A stretch of 64,000 bases of DNA. Origin: Bacteroidetes bacterium 37-13 (GTDB lineage: Bacteria; Bacteroidota; Bacteroidia; Chitinophagales; LD1). This document shows positions 11,705 to 35,070 of this stretch, one piece after another; position 1 is the stretch's first letter; each line of letters starts with the position of its first letter. The stretch covers positions 1 to 64,000 of the forward strand of contig MKTC01000010.1 in the NCBI GenBank assembly GCA_001897535.1, read 5' to 3'. The notes under the pieces were generated by a model. That model ran no database searches and was not told the origin of the DNA. It saw only the letters and a list, made by a program, of their open reading frames with translations. A program made the position numbers and the translations under genes.

Positions 11705-14700
11705 TTATCCAATCAACTCAACACCGCTTTCTTGCACATCTTGCGTTTGTTTTTCTACGCGTTCCATATCTTCTTTAGAAGCAACAAATATTTTAGAGAA
11801 TTTTCTTAAACCCGTTCCTGCAGGAATTCTGTGTCCCACAATAACGTTTTCTTTTAATCCTTCTAAATAATCTTGGCGAGCTGCAATAGAAGAAGTACTT
11901 AATACTTTGGTTGTTTCTTGGAACGAAGCCGCAGAAATCCATGAAGCAGTACTTAATGAAGCACGAGTGATACCTTGCAATTTAGGAGTAGCTGTTGCGG
12001 GAATGGCATCTCTAAATTCAACTAACTTTTTATCGTTACGTTTCAATAAAGAGTTTTCTTCGCGCACTTTACGTAAGGTTACAATTTGTCCTTGGTTTAG
12101 TGTTTCAGAATCACCCGCTTCTGTTACAACTTTCTTATCAAATAATTGGTCGTTAGCATCTAACAAATTGAATTTCTCAACTTGTTCGCCTTCCAAGAAT
12201 TTGGTATCTCCGGCATCTTCAATAATCATTTTGTTCATCATTTGGCGAACGATTACTTCTATATGCTTATCGTTGATTTTTATACCTTGAAGGCGATAAA
12301 CATCTTGAATTTCATTTACCAAATATTCTTGAACTGCAAATGGTCCTTTAATATTCAAAATATCAGTAGGCGTAATTGCACCGTCAGAAACCGGAGTTCC
12401 TGCGCGTACAAAATCTTGCTCTTGAACTAATATTTGTTTAGAAAGTGGCACTAAATATTTTACTATTTCACCGTCTTTGCTTTCGATAATTACTTCTCTG
12501 TTACCGCGTTTGATACCACCAAATCTAACCACGCCATCAATTTCAGCTACTGAAGCCGGGTTACTTGGATTTCTTGCTTCAAACAACTCGGTAACACGTG
12601 GAAGACCTCCGGTAATATCTTTTACTTTACCTGTTACACGTGGAATTTTAGCAAGTATTTGACCTGGTTTCACTGTTTCACCATTTTCAATTGAAAGGTG
12701 CGCTCCCACAGGTAAGCTATAATTTTTCCAATCTTTTCCGCTTTCAACTACAATAGTTGGTGCTTTGGTTTTGTCTTTTGTTTCTGTAATTACTTTCTCG
12801 TGGTGGCCTGTTTGTTCGTCCATTTCATCACGGTAAGTTACGTTGGCAATAATGTTTTCAAAACGAATTTTACCATTTACTTCAGAAACAATAACGTTGT
12901 TATACGGATCCCATCTGCAAATTTCATCGCCTTTGCCTACTTTTTGTCCATCTTTAAAGCTAATTATAGAGCCATAAGGAACGTGTGCTACTTGCAATAT
13001 TTTGTCGCTTTCCGGCTTCACAATTCTTAATTCGCCCGTTCTACCAATTACAATAGTTTGTTTTTCACCATTTTCATCGGTAGCAGCTATTACACGAACT
13101 CCGTCCAATTGAAGCACACCATCAAAGTTTGCTCTCAATTTAGATTCTGAAGTACCTAAGCTGGCGATACCACCCACGTGGAAGGTACGTAGTGTAAGCT
13201 GTGTTCCAGGTTCCCCGATTGATTGTGCAGCAATAATTCCAACTGAATCGCCTTCTTCTGCCACACGGTTGGTAGCTAAGTTTCTTCCGTAGCATTTTAC
13301 ACAAGCGCCTTTGCGAGCTTCGCAAGTAAGCACCGAGCGAACTTCTACAGTTTCAAGTCCTGAACTTTCAACCAATTTAGCTTCAACTTCGTTAATATGT
13401 GTACCTGCTGCTACTAACAATTCGTCAGTTTCAGGGTGGAAAATATCAACCAAAGATGAACGTCCTAATATTCTATCAGAAAGAGATTCAACAATTTCGT
13501 CTCCATTTTTAATTGCACTTACAGCAATACCTCTTAATGTACCGCAATCTTCTTCTGTGATTACCACATCTTGCGCCACATCTACCAATCTTCTGGTTAA
13601 GTAACCTGCATCGGCAGTTTTTAAAGCTGTATCCGAAAGACCTTTACGCGCACCGTGTGTAGAGATAAAGTACTCCAATACGCTCAAGCCTTCTTTAAAG
13701 TTTGCAAGAATCGGGTTCTCGATAACCTCCGCTCCTGTTGTGCCGGCTTTACGCGGTTTAGCCATCAAACCTCTCATTCCCGAAAGCTGCTTAATCTGCT
13801 GCTTAGAACCTCTCGCACCTGAATCCAGCATCATGAAAATACTATTGAAACCTTGACGGTCTTTAGTAATTTGATTCATGAGTTTGATAGTAAGTTGGTT
13901 ATCGGCATGTGTCCAAATATCAACTACTTGGTTAAAACGTTCTTTGTCGGTAATTAAACCCATTTGGTAGCTATCAGTAATTTCATCTACCTTTTCTTGA
14001 GCTTGTGCTACTAATTTTTCTTTTTCGTTTGGCACTAACACGTCACTAATATTAAAGCTCAATCCTCCTTTAAATGAGAAGAAGAAACCTAAGCGTTTAA
14101 TATCATCTAAGAATTTCGCAGTAGTAGGAATATCCGTTTTCGCTAAGATATTTCCGATTACATTCTTCAACTCTTTTTTACCAAGTAATTTGTTTACGTA
14201 GCCAATTTTTTCAGGTACTACTTGGTTCAAAATAATTCTACCTAAAGTAGTTTCTAAAACTTTATATTTAGCTTCGTTATTTTCAACTACTCTCACACGG
14301 CATTTCACAACTGCATTTAGTTCTACTTTCTTTTCGTTGAAAGCAATAACAGCTTCTTCTGCTCCGTAGAAAGTTAAACCTTCACCTTTCACTTTTTCAG
14401 TTTCGGTGCTTAGTTTAGACTTGGTCATGTAGTACAAACCCAACACCATGTCTTGTGAAGGAAGTGTGATTGGTGTACCGTTTTGTGGGTTCAAAATATT
14501 GTGAGAAGCCAACATTAGCATTTGAGCTTCTAAAACCGCAGCGTTTCCAAGTGGAACGTGAACCGCCATTTGGTCACCGTCAAAGTCTGCGTTGAATGCA
14601 CTACATACCAATGGGTGCAGTTGAATCGCTTTTCCTTCAATCAATTTAGGCAAGAAAGCTTGAATTGAAAGTCTGTGAAGCGTTGGGGCACGGTTTAATA

Positions 14701-16042
14701 AAATTGGGTGCCCTTTCAATACGTTTTCAAGAATATCCCAAATAATTGGCTCTTTTTTATCTACTAATTTCTTAGCGCTTTTTACTGTTTTCACAATACC
14801 GCGCTCAGTAAGTTTTCTAATAATAAATGGTTTGAATAATTCGGCAGCCATATCTTTTGGCAAACCGCACTCGTGCAATTTTAATTCAGGACCAACTACA
14901 ATTACCGAACGACCAGAGTAATCAACACGTTTACCTAAAAGGTTTTGACGGAAACGTCCTTGTTTTCCTTTAAGCACATCGCTTAACGATTTCAATTGGC
15001 GACCACCTTCTGCTTTTACGGCATTTGATTTACGAGAGTTATCGAAAAGTGAATCTACCGCTTCTTGCAACATGCGTTTTTCGTTACGCAAAATCACTTC
15101 AGGAGCTTTAATTTCGTGCAATCGCTTTAAACGGTTGTTACGAATAATTACTCTTCTATATAAATCGTTTAAGTCTGAAGATGCGAAACGTCCGCCATCT
15201 AATGGCACTAACGGGCGCAATTCCGGTGGAATAACCGGCAAATGCTGAACTACCATCCATTCAGGGCGGTTTTCAATATGTTCATTTGCTTCTCTAAAAG
15301 CTTCTACCACGCTCAAGCGCTTTAAAGCTTCGCTCTTACGCTGGCGCGAAGTTTCATTCGCAGCAGCATGGCGCAATTGGTAACTTAACTCATCTAAATT
15401 GATGCGACTTAATAATTCTTTTACTGCTTCAGCACCCATTTTTGCTACAAACTTGTTTGGATCTGTATCTTCAAGTTGGTAGTTGTTTTTCATGCTTTCA
15501 TTGTCGAAAACAGAAAGATATTCTTCTTCAGTAAGTAAATCTAAGTAAGCTAATTGGCGCTCCTCCTCTCCTTTTTCAGTTTGAAGCATCACACCGTTTG
15601 ATGTATTTCCCGGTTGAATTACAACATAACGCTCGTAATAAATAACGCTTTCTAATTTCTTAGAACCCATTCCTAACAAATAACCAATTTTATTAGGCAA
15701 GCTCTTAAAATACCAAATATGCACAATAGGCACAGTAAGGTTAATATGCCCCATGCGCTCTCTGCGCACTTTCTTTTCGGTAACTTCTACTCCACAACGG
15801 TCGCAAACTATACCTTTGTATCTAATGCGCTTGTATTTACCGCAGTAGCATTCGTAATCTTTGGTAGGTCCGAATACTCTTTCGCAAAACAAACCTTCCA
15901 TTTCGGGTTTGTAAGTTCTGTAGTTTATCGTTTCGGGTTTTTTAATTTCACCGTGGCTTCTGTCCAATACCGAATCTGGACTTGCCAACATAATAGTGAT
16001 TTTTGAAAAGTTAGAATTTAGCCGATTTTCTTTTTTAGCCAT
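11705..16042 (-). CDS. rpoC: RNA polymerase subunit beta'
   Basis: The 1445-residue catalytic large subunit. The N-terminal zinc ribbon has Cys65, Cys67, Cys80 and Cys83. The active-site loop NADFDGD at residues 484-490 chelates the catalytic magnesium. The second zinc site follows [14 protein letters not shown], and the bridge/trigger region includes [16 protein letters not shown]. The gene is intact, starts at ATG 16042 and ends 26 bp from a bidirectional terminator. The striking point is position: rpoB, its near-universal upstream partner, ends 12.2 kb away with genes on both strands between. rpoC therefore needs its own promoter, and a candidate lies at 16176-16207. Stoichiometry with RpoB must be set without co-transcription. 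Confidence 0.98.
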
Positions 16043-25777: not shown

Positions 25778-25808
25778 ACTTAAATTACTGCTTTGCTTTA
25801 TTGTTTTG

Positions 25809-25880
25809 TGGTCTCAGCGGGAATCGAACCCACATCAAAAGTTTAGGAAACTTCTATTCTATCCGTTGAACTATGAGACC
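25809..25880 (-). tRNA. tRNA-Arg (anticodon CCT)
   Basis: Complete cloverleaf on the minus strand: acceptor GGTCTCA/TGAGACC; D stem GTTC/GAAT; anticodon stem GAAGT/ACTTT around loop TTCCTAA (anticodon CCT, reads AGG); T arm GTGGG-TTCGATT-CCCGC; discriminator A. The 3' CCA is not encoded. It lies between the esterase gene terminator and the DUF3298 lipoprotein. Confidence 0.95.
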
Positions 25881-25905: not shown

Positions 25906-25933
25906 AAAACCCGCACAAAGTTGCGCGGGTTTT
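25906..25933 (-). terminator. Terminator after the tandem esterase gene
   Basis: AAAACCCGC (25906-25914) pairs with GCGGGTTTT (25925-25933), a GC-rich 9-bp stem. On the minus strand it is followed by a T-run (TTTTTTATTTT). It lies 21 bp past the stop codon and 25 bp before the tRNA-Arg gene. Confidence 0.82.
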
Positions 25934-25954: not shown

Positions 25955-28087
25955 TTACTTCACAATCACTCTTGAAATTGCTTTGGTAATTCCATTTGTA
26001 GAAACTCTTACCACATAAACACCAAAAGCTGAATTGCTTAAATTTAGTGTAGTAATATTATTTTTTAAAGATGTAGTATTTACTAATTGTCCCATTTGGT
26101 TAAACACTTCAGCTACTGTTCCATTTTCAAACTTATCTGTTCTAATATTGAATGTTCCGCTATTTGGATTTGGATAAATCGCTAATGAGTAACTTCCGTT
26201 TATTTCAGAAATGCCAGTTATTGGACCAGCATCAGGGAATTGGCTACACACCATTGGGTATAAGAAATTACGCGCCAAAGTATCAATATCAGCCATCTTA
26301 GCTTCATCGCTATCCCAAGGGCAATGGTCATCACCGGGGAATGTTTTCAACTCGTGGCGAATATTACGTGCAGTTAAAGCAGTATCCATGCTTCCAGAAC
26401 CATACAAAGTAACTAATGTGAAAGAATTATATGGCGGTAAACGATACACTTGATTATGGTAATAAGGTACTGTGCGGTCTGCATCTCCATGTGCCATAAA
26501 AATCGGAACTCCGGTTGGAGCTATCCACGAAGTTTGGTTAATACCACCTGCTAAAGATACAACAGCTTGTACTTTTGAGGTGTAGCCCGGATTTCCGCTA
26601 TTTCCTTCTAATCCACCATTTGCCAACATTGTATCGCGCACATAACTTGGCAACACATTTAAATCATCAATATAAGCGTAATGTACAGAAAGAATTGCTC
26701 CGGCAGAATTTCCACCGATAAACATAAAGTTTGTATCAATTTTGTAAGTATTAGTAGTAGCTGCATCTTTTGAAAAATAACGCATAGCTGCTTTTGCATC
26801 AGAAATAGCCCATATTACTTCGCGCAACATTTTGGTTGAATCTACCAAATCGGTAAGTTGTGCCAATCTGTAATCAATAGAAGCAGTTACATAACCGCGT
26901 TTTGCAAAAGCCTTTTTGAAATAATTTACTGAGGCATCAGAAGCTTTATCTCCTGCTGTAAAGCCTCCACCGTGTGCTAATAGTAATAATGGTCTGCGGC
27001 TTGAAGTATCATTTTTAGGAAAGAAAATATCCATTTTGTTTTTATCGCTTCGTACATTGGTATATTCTACCTCTACGCTGTCAATTTCAAACATTTCATC
27101 TCTAAATCTTGCAGTGGTGCAATTGGTTGGGGTTCCAATATTCATATCGCTGCACAACCTTCTATATAAAAATGTTTTTGTAAGTGCATCTACTTGTCCA
27201 AATTTGGTAGCATTTCCTTCCCAAGGCACGTGTCCATCACCAGGGAAAATTAAAACATCGTTATCAATTCCTAAGTGCAAAACACGCGGTTGCATGGCAC
27301 CTGTGCCACAAAGTGTAACCGGAGTTATTCCGTTTTGTGCATTGGCGCAGTAGTATGGCACCACCGCATCAGCATCGCCATGAAAACTAACCATAGGAAC
27401 ATTTCCCGAGCTAATCCAACTTGTGTCGTTTATTCCACCTGCTAAGTTTACAATAGCATTTATTTTTGAAGAGTAACCTGGATTTCCGCTATTTCCTTCA
27501 AAACCGCCATTGTTATTAAGTGCTGTTTTAATATCATTATTGGTAACTTCATTTACACTATCAATATAGCCTAAGTGAACAAATAGAACTGCTCCCGCAG
27601 AATTACCACCGCCATAAATCAAATTAGGATTGATGCGGTATGTATTTGCTCCTGCAGCATCTTGTCTAAAGTAGCGAACTGCAGCTTTGCCATCGCTAAT
27701 TGCTTTTATTACCACATTAAATGCCGAATTAGCTTGCAACATATCTAACATTCCTCCCAAACGATAATCAATAGATGCTGTAACATAACCTCTCTTTGCA
27801 AAGTTCTTAGCAAGCGCTGTAACTGTGCCTTCTGTGCGATCGCCACGAACAAAACTTCCGCCATGCGCAAAAATAATTACCGGACGCTGCGAAGCCGTAT
27901 CGCCTTGAGGTTGGTAAATAGTCATCATTTGGTTGGTTGTAGAATATACAACGCTCACCGTGTCCACATTGGAAAATACATCATCAATATACCTGCCACT
28001 GCCGCTACAGAGTTGAGCAGAACTTGCGGTAAAAGCTAATGCTCCCACTGTTGCTCCAAGCCATTTTAGTCTTGTAAAAAGTTTCAT
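25955..28087 (-). CDS. Tandem two-domain alpha/beta-hydrolase (esterase) with T9SS sorting domain
   Basis: 710 residues: signal peptide (1 to about 24), two consecutive esterase/lipase-like domains, and a C-terminal T9SS type A sorting domain (about 635-710, starting YPNPNSGTFN). Copy 1 (about 40-310) has the oxyanion HGGSF, nucleophile Ser163 in GGGNSAGA, acid HGDAD and base His286 (PGDGH). Copy 2 (about 335-615) has HGGGF, Ser461 in GGNSAGA, HGDAD and His588 (PGDDH). Both triads look intact, with the serines 298 residues apart, and long blocks are identical between copies (RGYVTASIDYRL, EGNSGNPGY), so it is an internal duplication. The enzyme is probably secreted to the surface; the fold suggests esters such as feruloyl or acetyl groups, unproven. 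Rho-independent terminators bracket it. Confidence 0.85.
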   Translation of the reverse strand: MKLFTRLKWLGATVGALAFTASSAQLCSGSGRYIDDVFSNVDTVSVVYSTTNQMMTIYQPQGDTASQRPVIIFAHGGSFVRGDRTEGTVTALAKNFAKRGYVTASIDYRLGGMLDMLQANSAFNVVIKAISDGKAAVRYFRQDAAGANTYRINPNLIYGGGNSAGAVLFVHLGYIDSVNEVTNNDIKTALNNNGGFEGNSGNPGYSSKINAIVNLAGGINDTSWISSGNVPMVSFHGDADAVVPYYCANAQNGITPVTLCGTGAMQPRVLHLGIDNDVLIFPGDGHVPWEGNATKFGQVDALTKTFLYRRLCSDMNIGTPTNCTTARFRDEMFEIDSVEVEYTNVRSDKNKMDIFFPKNDTSSRRPLLLLAHGGGFTAGDKASDASVNYFKKAFAKRGYVTASIDYRLAQLTDLVDSTKMLREVIWAISDAKAAMRYFSKDAATTNTYKIDTNFMFIGGNSAGAILSVHYAYIDDLNVLPSYVRDTMLANGGLEGNSGNPGYTSKVQAVVSLAGGINQTSWIAPTGVPIFMAHGDADRTVPYYHNQVYRLPPYNSFTLVTLYGSGSMDTALTARNIRHELKTFPGDDHCPWDSDEAKMADIDTLARNFLYPMVCSQFPDAGPITGISEINGSYSLAIYPNPNSGTFNIRTDKFENGTVAEVFNQMGQLVNTTSLKNNITTLNLSNSAFGVYVVRVSTNGITKAISRVIVK

Positions 28088-28200: not shown

Positions 28201-28228
28201 AAAAAGCAACCCGAATGAGTTGCTTTTT
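28201..28228 (-). terminator. Terminator of rpoB
   Basis: AAAAAGCAAC (28201-28210) pairs with GTTGCTTTTT (28219-28228), a perfect 10-bp stem with an 8-nt loop. On the minus strand it runs into further T. It lies 22 bp after the rpoB stop and shows that the rplL-rpoB transcript ends here without rpoC. Confidence 0.85.
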
Positions 28229-28250: not shown

Positions 28251-31200
28251 TTAATCGAATTTTAAATCTAATGCTAAACCACGCAATTCATGAACCAATA
28301 CATTGAAAGATTCCGGCATGTTTGGCTCAGGGATATTGTCGCCTTTCACAATAGCTTCATAAGCTTTTGCTCTACCAACAATATCATCAGACTTCACAGT
28401 AAGTAATTCTTGCAAAATATTTGATGCACCATAAGCTTCAAGTGCCCAAACTTCCATTTCACCAAAACGCTGGCCGCCAAATTGCGCTTTACCGCCCAAT
28501 GGTTGTTGTGTGATGAGTGAGTAAGGACCTGTAGAACGTGCGTGCATTTTATCATCAACCATGTGTATAAGCTTAATCATGTAGATTACACCCACAGTTG
28601 TTCTTTGGTCAAAACGCTCTCCGGTCTCACCATCGTAAAGGTAAGTAGAACCATATTCAGGTAAATCAGCTTTTTTAATGTACTCAGAAACTTCTTCTAA
28701 TGAAGCACCATCAAAAATTGGCGTTCCGAATTTTAAACCTAATTTTAAGCCAGCCCAACCCAATACGGTTTCATAAATTTGACCAAGGTTCATACGCGAA
28801 GGTACGCCCAGTGGGTTCAAAACAATATCAACCGGAGTTCCATCTTCTAAGAAAGGCATGTCTTCTTGGCGAACAATACGGGCAACAATACCTTTGTTTC
28901 CGTGGCGACCTGCCATTTTATCTCCTACTTTCAACTTACGTTTCTTAGCAAGGTAAACTTTGGCTAATTTCAATACTCCGCTTGGTAGTTCATCACCAAT
29001 GCTAATATTGAATTTCTCTCTCTTATAGCGACCGGTTTCTTCATTTATGCGAAGTGTGTAATTGTGAATAATCAACTTCACTAAATGGTTAGTGTCGTCT
29101 TCTTTCGTCCACTTTAAAGCATCAATGTTTGTGTAATCAAGAGATTCCAAAACTTTAGAAGTGAATTTTGTTCCTTTAGAAACAACTTCTTCTTTGAAAG
29201 AATTGTAAACTCCGTTGCTCACTTTCCCGCTTAAAACGGTCATCAACTTTTCAATTAAAACATCTTTAATCTCAGCAGTTTTCTTACCAAAATCTTTATC
29301 TAATTTCTCTAATAAAGTTTTTTCGCGAGTTTTAGATGTTTTGTCCTTTTTAGCGCGAGCAAAAAGTTTTTTATTGATAACAGTTCCTTCTACTGAAGGT
29401 GGTACTTTCAATGAAGCATCTTTTACATCACCTGCTTTATCACCAAAGATTGCTCTTAATAGTTTTTCTTCCGGAGTTGGGTCGCTTTCGCCTTTAGGTG
29501 TAATTTTACCAATTAAAATATCGCCTTCTTTCACGTGCGCTCCAACGCGGATAATTCCATTATCATCTAAGTCTTTAGTAGCTTCTTCTGCCACGTTTGG
29601 TATATCCGGTGTAAGTTCTTCTTCTCCTAATTTAGTATCGCGAATTTCTAACTCAAATTCTTCAACGTGAATTGAAGTGAATACATCATCGCGCACAACT
29701 CTTTCTGAAATTACAATCGCATCTTCAAAGTTGTAACCTTTCCACGGCATGAACGCCACTTTAAGGTTTGAACCTAATGCCAACTCTCCTTTTTCTGTTG
29801 CAAAACCTTCGCACAATACTTGCCCTGCTACCACACGTTGTCCTTTTCGAACTAACGGCTTTAAGTTGATACAAGTACTTTGGTTAGTTTTTAAGAATTT
29901 AGAAAGGTTATAGGTTTTCTTATCGTCTTTAAAGCTAACTAATTGCTCTTCTTGAGTGCGGTCGTAGCGAATAATAATTTGATTTGCATCAACATATTCT
30001 ACCACACCGTTTCCTTCTGCATTCACCAAGTTATTAGAATCGTGTGCTACTTTAGCTTCTAATCCTGTACCAACAATTGGCGCTTGAGGGCGCAATAATG
30101 GCACCGCTTGACGTTGCATGTTTGAACCCATCAATGCACGGTTAGCGTCATTATGCTCCAAGAAAGGAATTAACGATGCGCTTACACCCACAATTTGGTT
30201 TGGTGCAACATCAATAAACTGTACTTCTTCCGGTGTAGTGATAGGAAAATCACCTTGGAAACGAGCTTTTACTTTATCAGTGCTTATTGTTCCGTTCTTT
30301 TCAATATCTGTTTTTGCTTGAGCAATGGTGTAGTTATCTTCTTCTTCAGCAGAAAGGAATTGAACTGCACCGTTCATATCTACTTTGCCATTTGTTACTT
30401 TGCGATATGGTGTTTCAATAAAGCCCATTGCATTCACCTTTGCATGTGTACACAAAGTTGAAATCAAACCAATGTTTGGACCTTCCGGAGTTTCGATAGT
30501 ACACAAGCGACCGTAGTGGCTGTAGTGTACGTCTCTTACTTCAAAACCTGCACGCTCACGACTTAAACCACCGGGACCTAAAGCCGAAACTCTACGCTTG
30601 TTGGTAATTTCTGCCAACGGGTTGGTTTGGTCTAAGAACTGCGAAAGTTGTGAAGTACCAAAGAATGAGTTGATTACTGAAGAAAGTGTTCTTGCATTAA
30701 TCAAGTCAATTGGCGTAAACACTTCATTATCACGCACGTTCATACGTTCACGGATAGTTCTTGCCATTCTGGCTAAACCTACTCCAAATTGAGAATATAA
30801 CTGCTCGCCCACTGTGCGCACTCTTCTGTTGCTCAAATGGTCAATATCGTCAATTTCCGCTTTTTGGTTAGATAAGTTCACCAAATATTTAACAATCGAG
30901 ATAATATCTTGTTTTGTTAAAACGCGAACATCCATTGCGGTGTCGTGTTCTAACTTTTTGTTCACTTTGTATCTACCTACTTCACCTAAATCGTAACGCT
31001 TATCGCTAAAGAATAACTTCTCAATAATACCACGAGCAGTTTCTTCGTCTGGTGGATCTGAACCACGCAACTGGCGATAAATATGACTCAAAGCTTCTAC
31101 TTCAGAGTTTGAAGTATCCTTCTGTAACGTATTGAAAATGATTGAGTAATCAGCCTCTACCGATTCTTTATGTACAAACAAAGTTTTGGCTCCGCTATCT

Positions 31201-32069
31201 ACAATTAACTCAATATTGTCATCGGTAATTATGGTATCACGCTCCAACAAAACTTCATTACGTTCGATAGAAACTACCTCACCGGTATCTTCATCAACGA
31301 AGTCTTCCATCCAAGTTTTAAGAACACGCGCAGCTAATTTTCTACCAATTGCTTTGCTTGCATCTTTCTTAGTTTTCAATTCGATTTCATCAGCCAAATC
31401 GAAGAGTTTAAGAATATCTTTATCCGTATCGTAACCTACAGCTCTTAACAACATTGTAACCGGAAATTTCTTCTTACGGTCAATGTAAGCATACATTACG
31501 TTATTGATATCGGTTGCAAATTCCATCCATGCTCCTTTAAAAGGAATAACCCTTGCAGAATAAATCTTAGTTCCATTCGGGTGAAGGCTTTGACCGAAAA
31601 ATACACCAGGAGAGCGGTGAAGTTGGCTCACAACTACGCGCTCGGCACCGTTAATAATAAAAGTACCTTTTGGTGTGATGTATGGTATGTTTCCTAAGAA
31701 AACGTCTTGAACAATAGTTTTAAAATCTATGTGTTCAGGATCATTACAGCTTAGTCTTAATTTCGCTTTTAATGGAACGCAGTAAGTTAATCCGCGTTCA
31801 ATACATTCATCAATGCTGTAGCGTGGTGGATCTACAAAGTAGTCCAAAAACTCTAGCAAAAATATACCTCTGGAATCTGTTATTGGAAAGTTTTCAGAAA
31901 AAACTGTCCAAAGTCCCTCTTTAGAGCGGTTGTCGGCAGTAGTTTCTAATTGAACAAATTCGCGAAACGAGGCAAGTTGAATATCTAATAGGTTTGGTTG
32001 CTCATCCAGAACTCTTACTTTTCCAAAGCTAATTCTTTTCTGGATTTCTTGGTTGCTCTTTTCAGCCAT
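28251..32069 (-). CDS. rpoB: RNA polymerase subunit beta
   Basis: 1272 residues, full length and uninterrupted. Recognisable blocks include the rifampicin region ([18 protein letters not shown], then [13 protein letters not shown], then [19 protein letters not shown]), the catalytic-face stretch [27 protein letters not shown], and the C-terminal clamp segment [20 protein letters not shown]. It starts at ATG 32069, 182 bp after rplL, and is probably transcribed with it. A strong terminator follows directly. rpoC does not follow: the next gene is a secreted esterase, and rpoC lies 12.2 kb downstream. rplJ, rplA and rplK, the usual upstream partners, are absent too. The rifampicin pocket residues look wild type (Gln, Asp, His and Ser positions present). 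Confidence 0.98.
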
Positions 32070-32251: not shown

Positions 32252-32626
32252 TTACTTAACTTCAACTTCAGCACCTACTTCTTCCAATTTTTTCTTTAAA
32301 TCTTCAGCTGTAGCTTTGTCAGTTTTTTCTTTAACTGCTTTAGGAGCGCCATCTACTAAATCTTTAGCTTCTTTTAAGCCAAGGCCTGTAAGGTCTTTAA
32401 CTACTTTCACTACGTTTAATTTTTGAGCGCCTGCGCTTTTCAAAATTACATCGAATTCTGTTTGTTCAGCAACTGCAGCAGCACCACCTGCAGCAGGAGC
32501 AGCAACTGCAACTGCAGCAGCAGCCGGTTCGATACCGTAATCTGCTTTTAAAATGTTTGCAAGTTCTTGAACGTCTTTTACTGTTAAGCTTACTAATGTT
32601 TCAGCTAATTGCTTTAAATCTGCCAT
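32252..32626 (-). CDS. rplL: 50S ribosomal protein L7/L12
   Basis: 124 residues. The N-terminal dimerisation helices ([19 protein letters not shown]) are followed by an alanine-rich hinge ([14 protein letters not shown]) and the C-terminal factor-binding domain ([20 protein letters not shown], then [16 protein letters not shown]). It forms the flexible stalk that recruits elongation factors. rplJ (L10), which anchors the stalk and nearly always precedes rplL, is missing: upstream is a 305-bp gap and then pnp. A promoter at 32796-32826 gives a leader of about 160 nt. Downstream it is followed by rpoB. Confidence 0.97.
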
Positions 32627-32795
32627 TTTTTTTTACCGTTTAATTGTTTGTTTAAGAGATAATATTGATTTTGTATTTTGTTCGTTACTAAATATTTAAA
32701 AAATTTATTGCACTCACAATGCTTTTTATGATTTAACTAATTGATAAAGAACAATTTACGAAACCGTTTGGAAGCCCTTTCGGAAAACGGGAGCG

Positions 32796-32826
32796 CAAAT
32801 ATACAAATTATGCGTGTTTTTTCAAT
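32796..32826 (-). promoter_or_regulatory. Promoter of the rplL-rpoB unit, with 5' leader hairpin
   Basis: Minus strand: ATTG (32826-32823), exactly 19 nt, TATATTTG (32803-32796), a full -7 match. Just after the expected start (near 32789) the leader can fold as CGTTT/AAACG (within 32764-32790). The rest of the 305-bp gap (32627-32931) holds this leader and a possible weak pnp terminator (stem 32862-32870 with 32904-32912). No gene is visible there. Confidence 0.6.
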
Positions 32827-32931
32827 AAATTTACTTGTAAAGTGTAATATTTTTAAGTTGTGTTGCTTTAAAACTTGAAACTCCTTGATAAAGCTACATT
32901 TTCTAAAGCAACTTCCACTTAAATTTTAACG

Positions 32932-35070
32932 CTAATTTTCATTTGCCGTTTCTTGAAGCAATGCTTTTCTGCTTAGTTTAAATTTTCCTGTTTTAGGCTC
33001 AACTCCAAGCAATTTAACTTTCACAACTTCATTTTCTTTAAATATGCCATCCATGTTTTCAAGTCTTTTATTGCTTATTTCAGAGATGTGCAACAAGCCT
33101 TGTTTGCCAGGTAAAAATTCAACAAAAGCGCCATAAGGCATAATGCTTTTCACGGTTGCTTCATATACTTTTCCTACTTCCGGAACGGCTACAATACCTG
33201 CAATCCATTTTTGGGCAGCATCTAAACCGTCTTTGTTTGGAGAGAAAATTTCTACTTTTCCTTTGTTTCCAACTTCTTCGATAGTAATTGTGGTTCCTGT
33301 TACAGCTTGAATTTCTTGAATTACTTTACCTCCTGTGCCAATAACTGCACCGATAAATTCTTTCTCAATTTCCATTACCACTACTCTTGGAGCATTTGGT
33401 TTGTAGTCTTCGCGTGGCGCACTTAAAGTTTCGGTTAATTTGCCCAAAATATGTAATCTGCCGCGTTTTGCTTGCTCCAATGCTTCCATAAGGATTGCTT
33501 GGCTAAGTCCATCAATTTTAATGTCCATTTGGCAAGCTGTAATTCCATCTTGAGTGCCGCAAACTTTAAAATCCATATCACCCAAGTGGTCTTCATCTCC
33601 AAGAATATCAGAAAGAATTGAATAATTGCCTTCTTTATCTGTAACCAAACCCATGGCGATACCGCTTACAGGTTTTTTAATTTTTACACCTGCATCCATA
33701 AGTGCTAAAGTTCCGGCACAAACTGTTGCCATACTTGAAGAACCATTTGATTCTAAAATATCACTCACTACGCGAATGCTGTAAGGAGAATCGCTTGGCA
33801 CTACTACTTGCAAAGCGCGAAGTGCTAAATTTCCGTGTCCAATTTCTCTGCGTCCTGTGCCGCGTGGTACTCTTGCTTCTCCGGTGCTGTAGCCAGGGAA
33901 GTTATAGTTTAGCATAAACTTCTTTTCTTCGTTTATCACAACGCCATCAACCATTTGTTGGTCTAATTTCGTACCTAAAGTAACGGTTGAAAGTGATTGT
34001 GTTTCGCCTCTGGTAAAAATAGCTGAGCCGTGTGCACCAGGTAAGTAATCTACTTCTGTCCAAATTGGGCGAACTTCGTCCATTTTTCTACCATCAAGAC
34101 GTTTTTTGGCAGTAAGCATTACTTTGCGAACAGCTTCTTTTTCTACTTTGTGATAGTATTGACCGATTAGCCAACTATCTTCTTTTGCTTTCTCCTCTCC
34201 TACTTCTGCTATGTATTGAGCTACAAACTCATCTTTTACGGCAGCAAATTTATCGCCTCTAGCGTGCTTATCTGCTAAGCCTTCTCCAGCAATAGCTGCA
34301 CATTTATCAAATGTAGCATTCCACACTTTTGCTTTTAAATCTTCGTTGTGTTTTTCGTGGCTGTAAGTGCGTTTTGTTTGTGTTCCTGTTTCTGCTTCTA
34401 ATTCGCGAATTACTTTGATGTGTGATTTAATAACGTTATGTGCAAAAGCAATAGCTTCCACCATATCGGCTTCGCTCACTTCTTTCATTTCGCCTTCTAC
34501 CATCAAAATGTTTTCTGCGGTAGCGGCAACAATCATGTCTATATCAGTTTCAGCAGATTCTACAACACTCTTCTTTGGGTTAATTACCAATTTGCCGTTT
34601 ACTCTTGCCACGCGAACTTCGCTCACCGGCTCAGAAAAAGGAATGGTAGAAACCGCTAAAGCCGAAGATGCAGCCAAACATGCCAAAGCATCAGGCAATT
34701 CATCAGCATCGGCCGAAATAAGCTGTAGCATGACTACCACGTTTGCGTGAAAATCATCTGGGAAAAGTGGACGTAAAGCTCTATCAACCAAACGGCTCAC
34801 CAAAATTTCGTGCTCGTAAGGTCTTCCTTCACGCTTAAAAAAGCCTCCAGGAAACTTACCCAAAGCGGCAAAGCTTTCGCGGTATTCAACCGTAAGTGGC
34901 ATAAAATCTACGCCTTCTTTGGCATCTTTATCTGCACAAGCGGTTGCCAAAATCATGGTATTCCCGTATTTCACCACCACGCTGCCATCAGCTTGTTTGG
35001 CTAATTTACCGGTTTCAATTTCTACTAAGCGACCATCGCCTAAATCAACAGTTTTTTTAATAATGTTCAT
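32932..35070 (-). CDS. pnp: Polyribonucleotide nucleotidyltransferase (PNPase)
   Basis: 3'-5' phosphorolytic exoribonuclease and RNA-degradation core. 712 residues: two RNase PH-like domains (first from about residue 10; second from about 325 with [20 protein letters not shown] and [15 protein letters not shown], the active site), a helical domain between them, a KH domain ([20 protein letters not shown]) and a C-terminal S1 domain ([20 protein letters not shown]). It starts at ATG 35070. It follows rpsO on the same strand, the canonical rpsO-pnp order, with 247 bp between them that include a terminator-like hairpin. In enterobacteria PNPase controls its own message through this leader; whether that holds here is unknown. 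One of few conserved informational gene pairs in the window. Confidence 0.97.

Follow-up and report, generated by a model that had tools for sequence, protein, structure and literature searches.

A gene for two homologous esterase domains ahead of a single T9SS sorting domain in Bacteroidetes bacterium 37-13

The stretch of DNA analysed here (the window; 64,000 nucleotides, positions 1 to 64,000 of contig MKTC01000010.1) carries on its minus strand, at 25955..28087, a whole gene (P0001) for a two-domain, T9SS-tagged esterase of 710 residues with an ATG start. An earlier note, made from the letters alone, had described an esterase with a T9SS tag at this place, with one sorting domain after both halves, and the 710-residue reading frame agrees with that description. 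All coordinates given below for parts of this gene are on the minus strand. Residues 1–24 (28016..28087) resemble a signal peptide when the sequence is read by eye, and the putative cleavage between A24 and Q25 agrees with the Q-rule described for the cutting of Bacteroidetes signal peptides (PMC10653852). The N-terminal esterase domain (residues 25–312; 27152..28015) was delimited by its matches to BD-FAE, Abhydrolase_3 and COesterase and by its place in the domain tree. It is followed by a linker (residues 313–322; 27122..27151) that is unconserved, with one of eight aligned residues identical between the two genomes that carry the fusion. The C-terminal esterase domain (residues 323–614; 26246..27121) was placed by the tree and by its best BD-FAE stretch, 352–517, and a second short linker joins it to the T9SS type A sorting domain (residues 637–710; 25958..26179).

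The Pfam family BD-FAE (PF20434), which is common to both halves, matched the protein with 152.5 bits against a cut-off of 26.8, in four stretches that span both halves. The sorting domain was recognized by Por_Secre_tail of Pfam (PF18962; residues 637–709, 46.7 bits, cut-off 27) and by TIGR04183 of NCBIfam (41.6 bits, cut-off 23). The same genome contains sprA, a gene of the T9SS translocon (SprA, TIGR04189; 2446 bits, cut-off 200).

Each half holds the motifs that the earlier note had listed: HGG at residues 75 and 372, GNSAG at 161 and 459, and HGD at 236 and 533. The four catalytic residues that it had named (S163, H286, S461 and H588) are all present, and D240 and D537 complete the two triads as the acids. 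In the N domain the triad consists of the nucleophile Ser163 within GNSAG (27599..27601), the acid Asp240 within HGDAD (27368..27370) and the base His286 (27230..27232); in the C domain, the family alignment assigns these roles to Ser461 (26705..26707), Asp537 (26477..26479) and His588 (26324..26326). Both triads are intact, and each of the three columns is kept in 76 of the 77 family domains.

The sole exception in these columns is another T9SS-type protein of this genome, a paralog (L003:1294-2793, plus strand; G000:C6:127683-128441). It reads GTNSG and HGIEE in place of the usual motifs and has no His, and it is likely to be a non-catalytic esterase homologue.

A profile built from 28 of the domains matched the crystal chain 6XYC of BD-FAE (PDB 6TKX and 6XYC; PMC8165983) with an E-value of 6.9e-18, over a part of that domain (positions 14–201 and 197–228 of 292), so that the HMMER alignment stops short of His269 of BD-FAE. 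Ser128 and Asp237, which are among the catalytic residues given for BD-FAE (PMC8165983), fall in the columns of S163/S461 and D240/D537, respectively. When single sequences were searched against the PDB, the best match was the CE part of a bifunctional GH43–CE protein (6MLY; E 8.9e-9), where the partner domain is a glycoside hydrolase, unlike the esterase partner found here. An alpha/beta-hydrolase fold would be expected for both halves on grounds of homology; AlphaFold runs on the halves, each aligned only with its partner half (two-row alignments), gave unusable models (pLDDT 29.8 and 28.0).

When the two halves were aligned with each other, 135 of 281 aligned positions were identical (48%). 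The Smith–Waterman score was 673, compared with a mean of 36 (sd 5.6, maximum 58) for 300 shuffles of one half. Hence the likeness of the halves is not due to chance, and they are homologous, as the earlier note had supposed. At the 135 shared residues the same codon is used 70 times, where 66 would be expected by chance; this lack of an excess indicates that the split between the halves is old. Recent gene conversion between the halves was considered and rejected, since there is no excess of synonymous matches and most diagnostic columns argue otherwise: at columns where L013 and L014 (two single-domain relatives described below) agree with each other and differ from the N halves, the C halves mostly follow L013 and L014 or show a third state. 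The block GYVTASIDYRL is identical in both halves of this genome and differs in the C half of the other fusion, and there may have been a small, old gene-conversion tract.

The two-domain form was found in only two carriers, this genome and one congener. Including the genome studied here, full-length matches over 710 residues numbered two among 99 relatives, and the two-domain form occurred in two of 30 genomes of the family and in at least two of 396 genomes of the order, with few candidates scored per genome. In the fetched loci, two of the 77 family ORFs have two domains. The other 75 have one; thus the single-domain relatives that the earlier note had proposed to look for do exist. Those of the same family of bacteria (L013–L041 and others) are T9SS-tagged BD-FAE-type esterases with the same domain, leader and tail and a single catalytic domain, and are 50–56% identical to one half. 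A protein search of genome contigs returned a single weak match, in a Hydrogenedentota MAG (L042; 23% identity). No homologous two-domain BD-FAE-type protein appeared in titles or abstract openings on tandem or duplicated esterase domains, a partial coverage that makes this weak evidence of absence from print.

The fusion gene lies between rpoB and a tRNA-Arg gene in this genome; in the congener it lies elsewhere than behind rpoB. A terminator scan found hairpin-like sites on the minus strand in the gap between rpoB and the esterase gene (28201..28228) and just downstream of the latter (25906..25933), among seven such sites in the region compared with 2.5 expected. The hairpin behind rpoB makes it likely that the esterase gene forms a transcription unit of its own. 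In relatives, a single-domain T9SS esterase gene stands directly behind metG (methionine-tRNA ligase) in 15 of the 19 genomes searched (L108–L121, L124, L127), a proportion that is no survey, as these genomes were partly chosen for carrying such genes. The metG–esterase pair is absent from both fusion genomes and also from G019 and G085. A function based on operon membership was set aside, as the conserved neighbour in relatives, metG, is a housekeeping gene, and the neighbour here is rpoB, with a hairpin between; such neighbours say nothing on the substrate.

BD-FAE itself is a single-domain enzyme whose gene stands among those for the breakdown of xylan (PMC8165983), whereas the protein described here has two domains and a T9SS tail, and its locus lies between rpoB and a tRNA gene. 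The genome has no match to GH10 or GH43, so that a BD-FAE-like role on xylan is not supported. Nor does the gene lie in a xylan utilisation locus, the neighbours being rpoB and tRNA-Arg.

The ancestry of the halves was examined in a tree of 77 domain rows, from which two rows, the weak match L007 (34 bits) and L070_m4192, a fragment at a contig edge, had been dropped beforehand. Of the matches among the relatives, it covers those retrieved as loci; L009–L011, L030, L034, L039 and L042 were left out, being duplicates, rpoC or the weak match in the Hydrogenedentota MAG, and L105, L106 and L128–L130 stood outside the analysis. A chosen subset of 48 rows, and a set of 47 rows without L082, were also used. 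The C halves grouped with the single-domain proteins L013 and L014 at 100/100 in both the 77-row and the 48-row tree. L013 belongs to a different genus of the same family, L014 to a different family of the order; both are complete single-domain proteins, each with its own N-terminal leader and C-terminal tail. The N halves grouped with a different single-domain set, at 97/94 in the 77-row tree and 87/95 in the 48-row tree. When the four halves were constrained to one clade, the tree was 109 log units worse and was rejected (AU p 6.9e-5), as it was with the reduced sets (p 2.5e-4 for 48 rows, 2.7e-6 for 47 rows). The test did not reject a clade in which L013 and L014 join the four halves (p 0.15, and 0.21 in the 47-row set; p 0.09 when L082 was added). 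The AU tests thus place the split between N and C before that of the C halves from L013 and L014, and it is likely that the ancestors of the halves were already two genes before they were joined. Of the proposal in the earlier note that gene duplication and fusion produced the protein, the homology of the halves stands, and a single local event is not supported, given the rejection of the four-half clade; a looser form, in which the duplication is ancestral to L013 and L014 as well, is not rejected.

L082, a single-domain gene from a third genome of the genus, fell within the C clade at 98/93; its placement with the N halves was not rejected (p 0.10), and the gene lies directly behind metG, like the N-type genes.

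The sorting domains were also compared. The tail of the fusion scored 51 against that of L013 (rank 62 of 75) and 47 against that of L014 (rank 67 of 75), and it scored higher against many N-type tails. An N-like tail would fit a domain insertion or an internal duplication better than an end-to-end fusion. However, tails diverge very fast (those of L013 and L014 share 12 of 59 aligned residues), so that the comparison decides little on the route of fusion, and it was dropped as evidence on that point because it is too noisy. The pair L013 and L014 is itself of some note, the catalytic domains being close while the families differ and the tails are as far apart as stated; this may reflect horizontal transfer accompanied by an exchange of the sorting domain.

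Between this genome and its congener, whose fusion gene (L012) has the same 710-residue frame, the N and C domains are 81% identical each and the sorting domain 57%; residues 1–24, at 42% identity, are the second-least conserved coding part. The dN/dS values were 0.08 for the N domain, 0.12 for the C domain and 0.26 for the sorting domain, ratios that are rough because dS between the two genes is above 1 (1.2–1.9), with synonymous sites near saturation. Rough as the ratios are, both halves are under purifying selection and neither looks to be decaying; both are thus probably catalytically active. An extra Cys pair, C247/C260, is found in the N half, and in 37 of the 77 domains in all, and is absent from the C halves and from L013 and L014. 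Compared with the N half, the C half carries a five-residue insert, and next to its acid it has Arg538-Thr539 in place of the Ala-Val of the N half. These differences, together with the missing Cys pair, suggest that the two halves may differ in specificity.

We favour, with reasonable though far from full confidence, the reading that the gene encodes a carboxylic-ester hydrolase, secreted or at the cell surface, that has two working sites per chain and arose by the joining of two diverged single-domain T9SS esterases. Its surface location and catalytic activity, like its substrate and any synergy, are predictions from sequence, and so is the bifunctional or avidity-enhanced character that the earlier note proposed. 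Sec would export the protein and its single C-terminal T9SS domain would take it across the outer membrane, where each domain would cut esters by a Ser-His-Asp mechanism with an HGG oxyanion hole. One partner would have been a single-domain T9SS esterase of the usual metG-linked kind, and the other a member of the rarer kind that now occurs singly as L013 and L014; the joining would have cost the former its sorting domain and the latter its signal peptide. A fuller version goes further, and we hold it tentatively, at somewhat less than an even chance: the joined enzymes would be homologous T9SS esterases that had long diverged, one being of a type that circulates horizontally, the two sites may be complementary or cooperate on one surface polymer, and the ancestral metG-linked enzyme may have been replaced in one branch of the genus.

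An artefact of assembly, or a frameshift joining tandem genes, would make the two-domain form spurious. In its favour, some relatives (L059, L068, L069 and L070) carry single-domain copies in tandem. In L059, however, both copies come with a leader and a tail of their own and are separated by two stops, whereas the frame described here has no internal stop and its internal copy lacks both leader and sorting domain. Moreover, the congener has the same 710-residue frame, 76% identical and in a different neighbourhood on a contig of 768 kb, so that this explanation is in practice refuted. Internal duplication of the catalytic domain (SP-E-CTD to SP-E-E-CTD), with the C module later becoming L013 and L014, is a more serious competitor, and one we consider unlikely. 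The six-row clade that it calls for is not rejected, which leaves room for an older duplication within the lineage, with C-type singles lost to others; the resemblance of the fusion tail to N-type tails and the one short linker between the domains also agree with it. Against this, the C module would have had to acquire both a signal peptide and a sorting domain anew in L013 and L014, the best tree keeps the groups apart, and no synonymous similarity remains between the halves.

One half could be a non-catalytic or weakly catalytic partner with a role in binding or stability despite its triad, which we judge slightly less probable again than internal duplication. That the family can produce a degenerate member is seen from the paralog L003, which lacks Ser, Asp and His, and the C half is without C247/C260. 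The latter point loses weight because 39 of the 77 domains have no Cys pair altogether and nearly all of these have an intact triad; in the protein itself both triads, the HGG motifs and the surrounding residues are intact, and the constraint on the halves is similar.

Two esterase domains in one chain are also known from Bacteroidetes in the fused CE6–CE1 acetyl-feruloyl esterases of Bacteroides ovatus and Flavobacterium johnsoniae, where both domains are reported to be active, with intramolecular synergy in the B. ovatus fusion (PMC7110780). The CE6 and CE1 domains belong to different CE families, whereas the two domains here are 48% identical and belong to the same Pfam family. Two homologous, intact esterase domains under one T9SS tag seem to be uncommon in the group (two of the 77 family ORFs), and we regard the protein as a common enzyme in an unusual form, rather than as a new kind of system; the general view of secretion or catalysis is unchanged by it. 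As each half has intact single-domain relatives, the fused pair can be compared cleanly with its parts, and such a comparison bears on whether linking esterases alters specificity or synergy, a point already put to the test with the non-homologous CE6–CE1 fusions (PMC7110780).

Some observations concern the surroundings of the gene. Just downstream of it, at 25808-25880 (minus strand), lies a tRNA-Arg (CCT), and the window has no other tRNA; the congener also has a tRNA-Arg (CCT), some 5 kb past rpoB (L102). The genes rpoC (11705-16042) and rpoB (28251-32069), both on the minus strand, are separated by about 12 kb that holds genes on either strand. They are adjacent in five genomes of the same family (G006, G009, G011, G026 and G029) and about 86 kb apart in G017; in G002 they are on different contigs, with no rpoC within 11 kb downstream of rpoB. 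The rpoBC operon seems to have been split in the family, perhaps more than once, and nothing on such a split appeared in literature titles or abstract openings. Upstream (32252-35070), rplL precedes rpoB in the usual order. The gene upstream of rplL (32932-35070) codes for 712 residues and looks, by eye, like polynucleotide phosphorylase and not rplJ.
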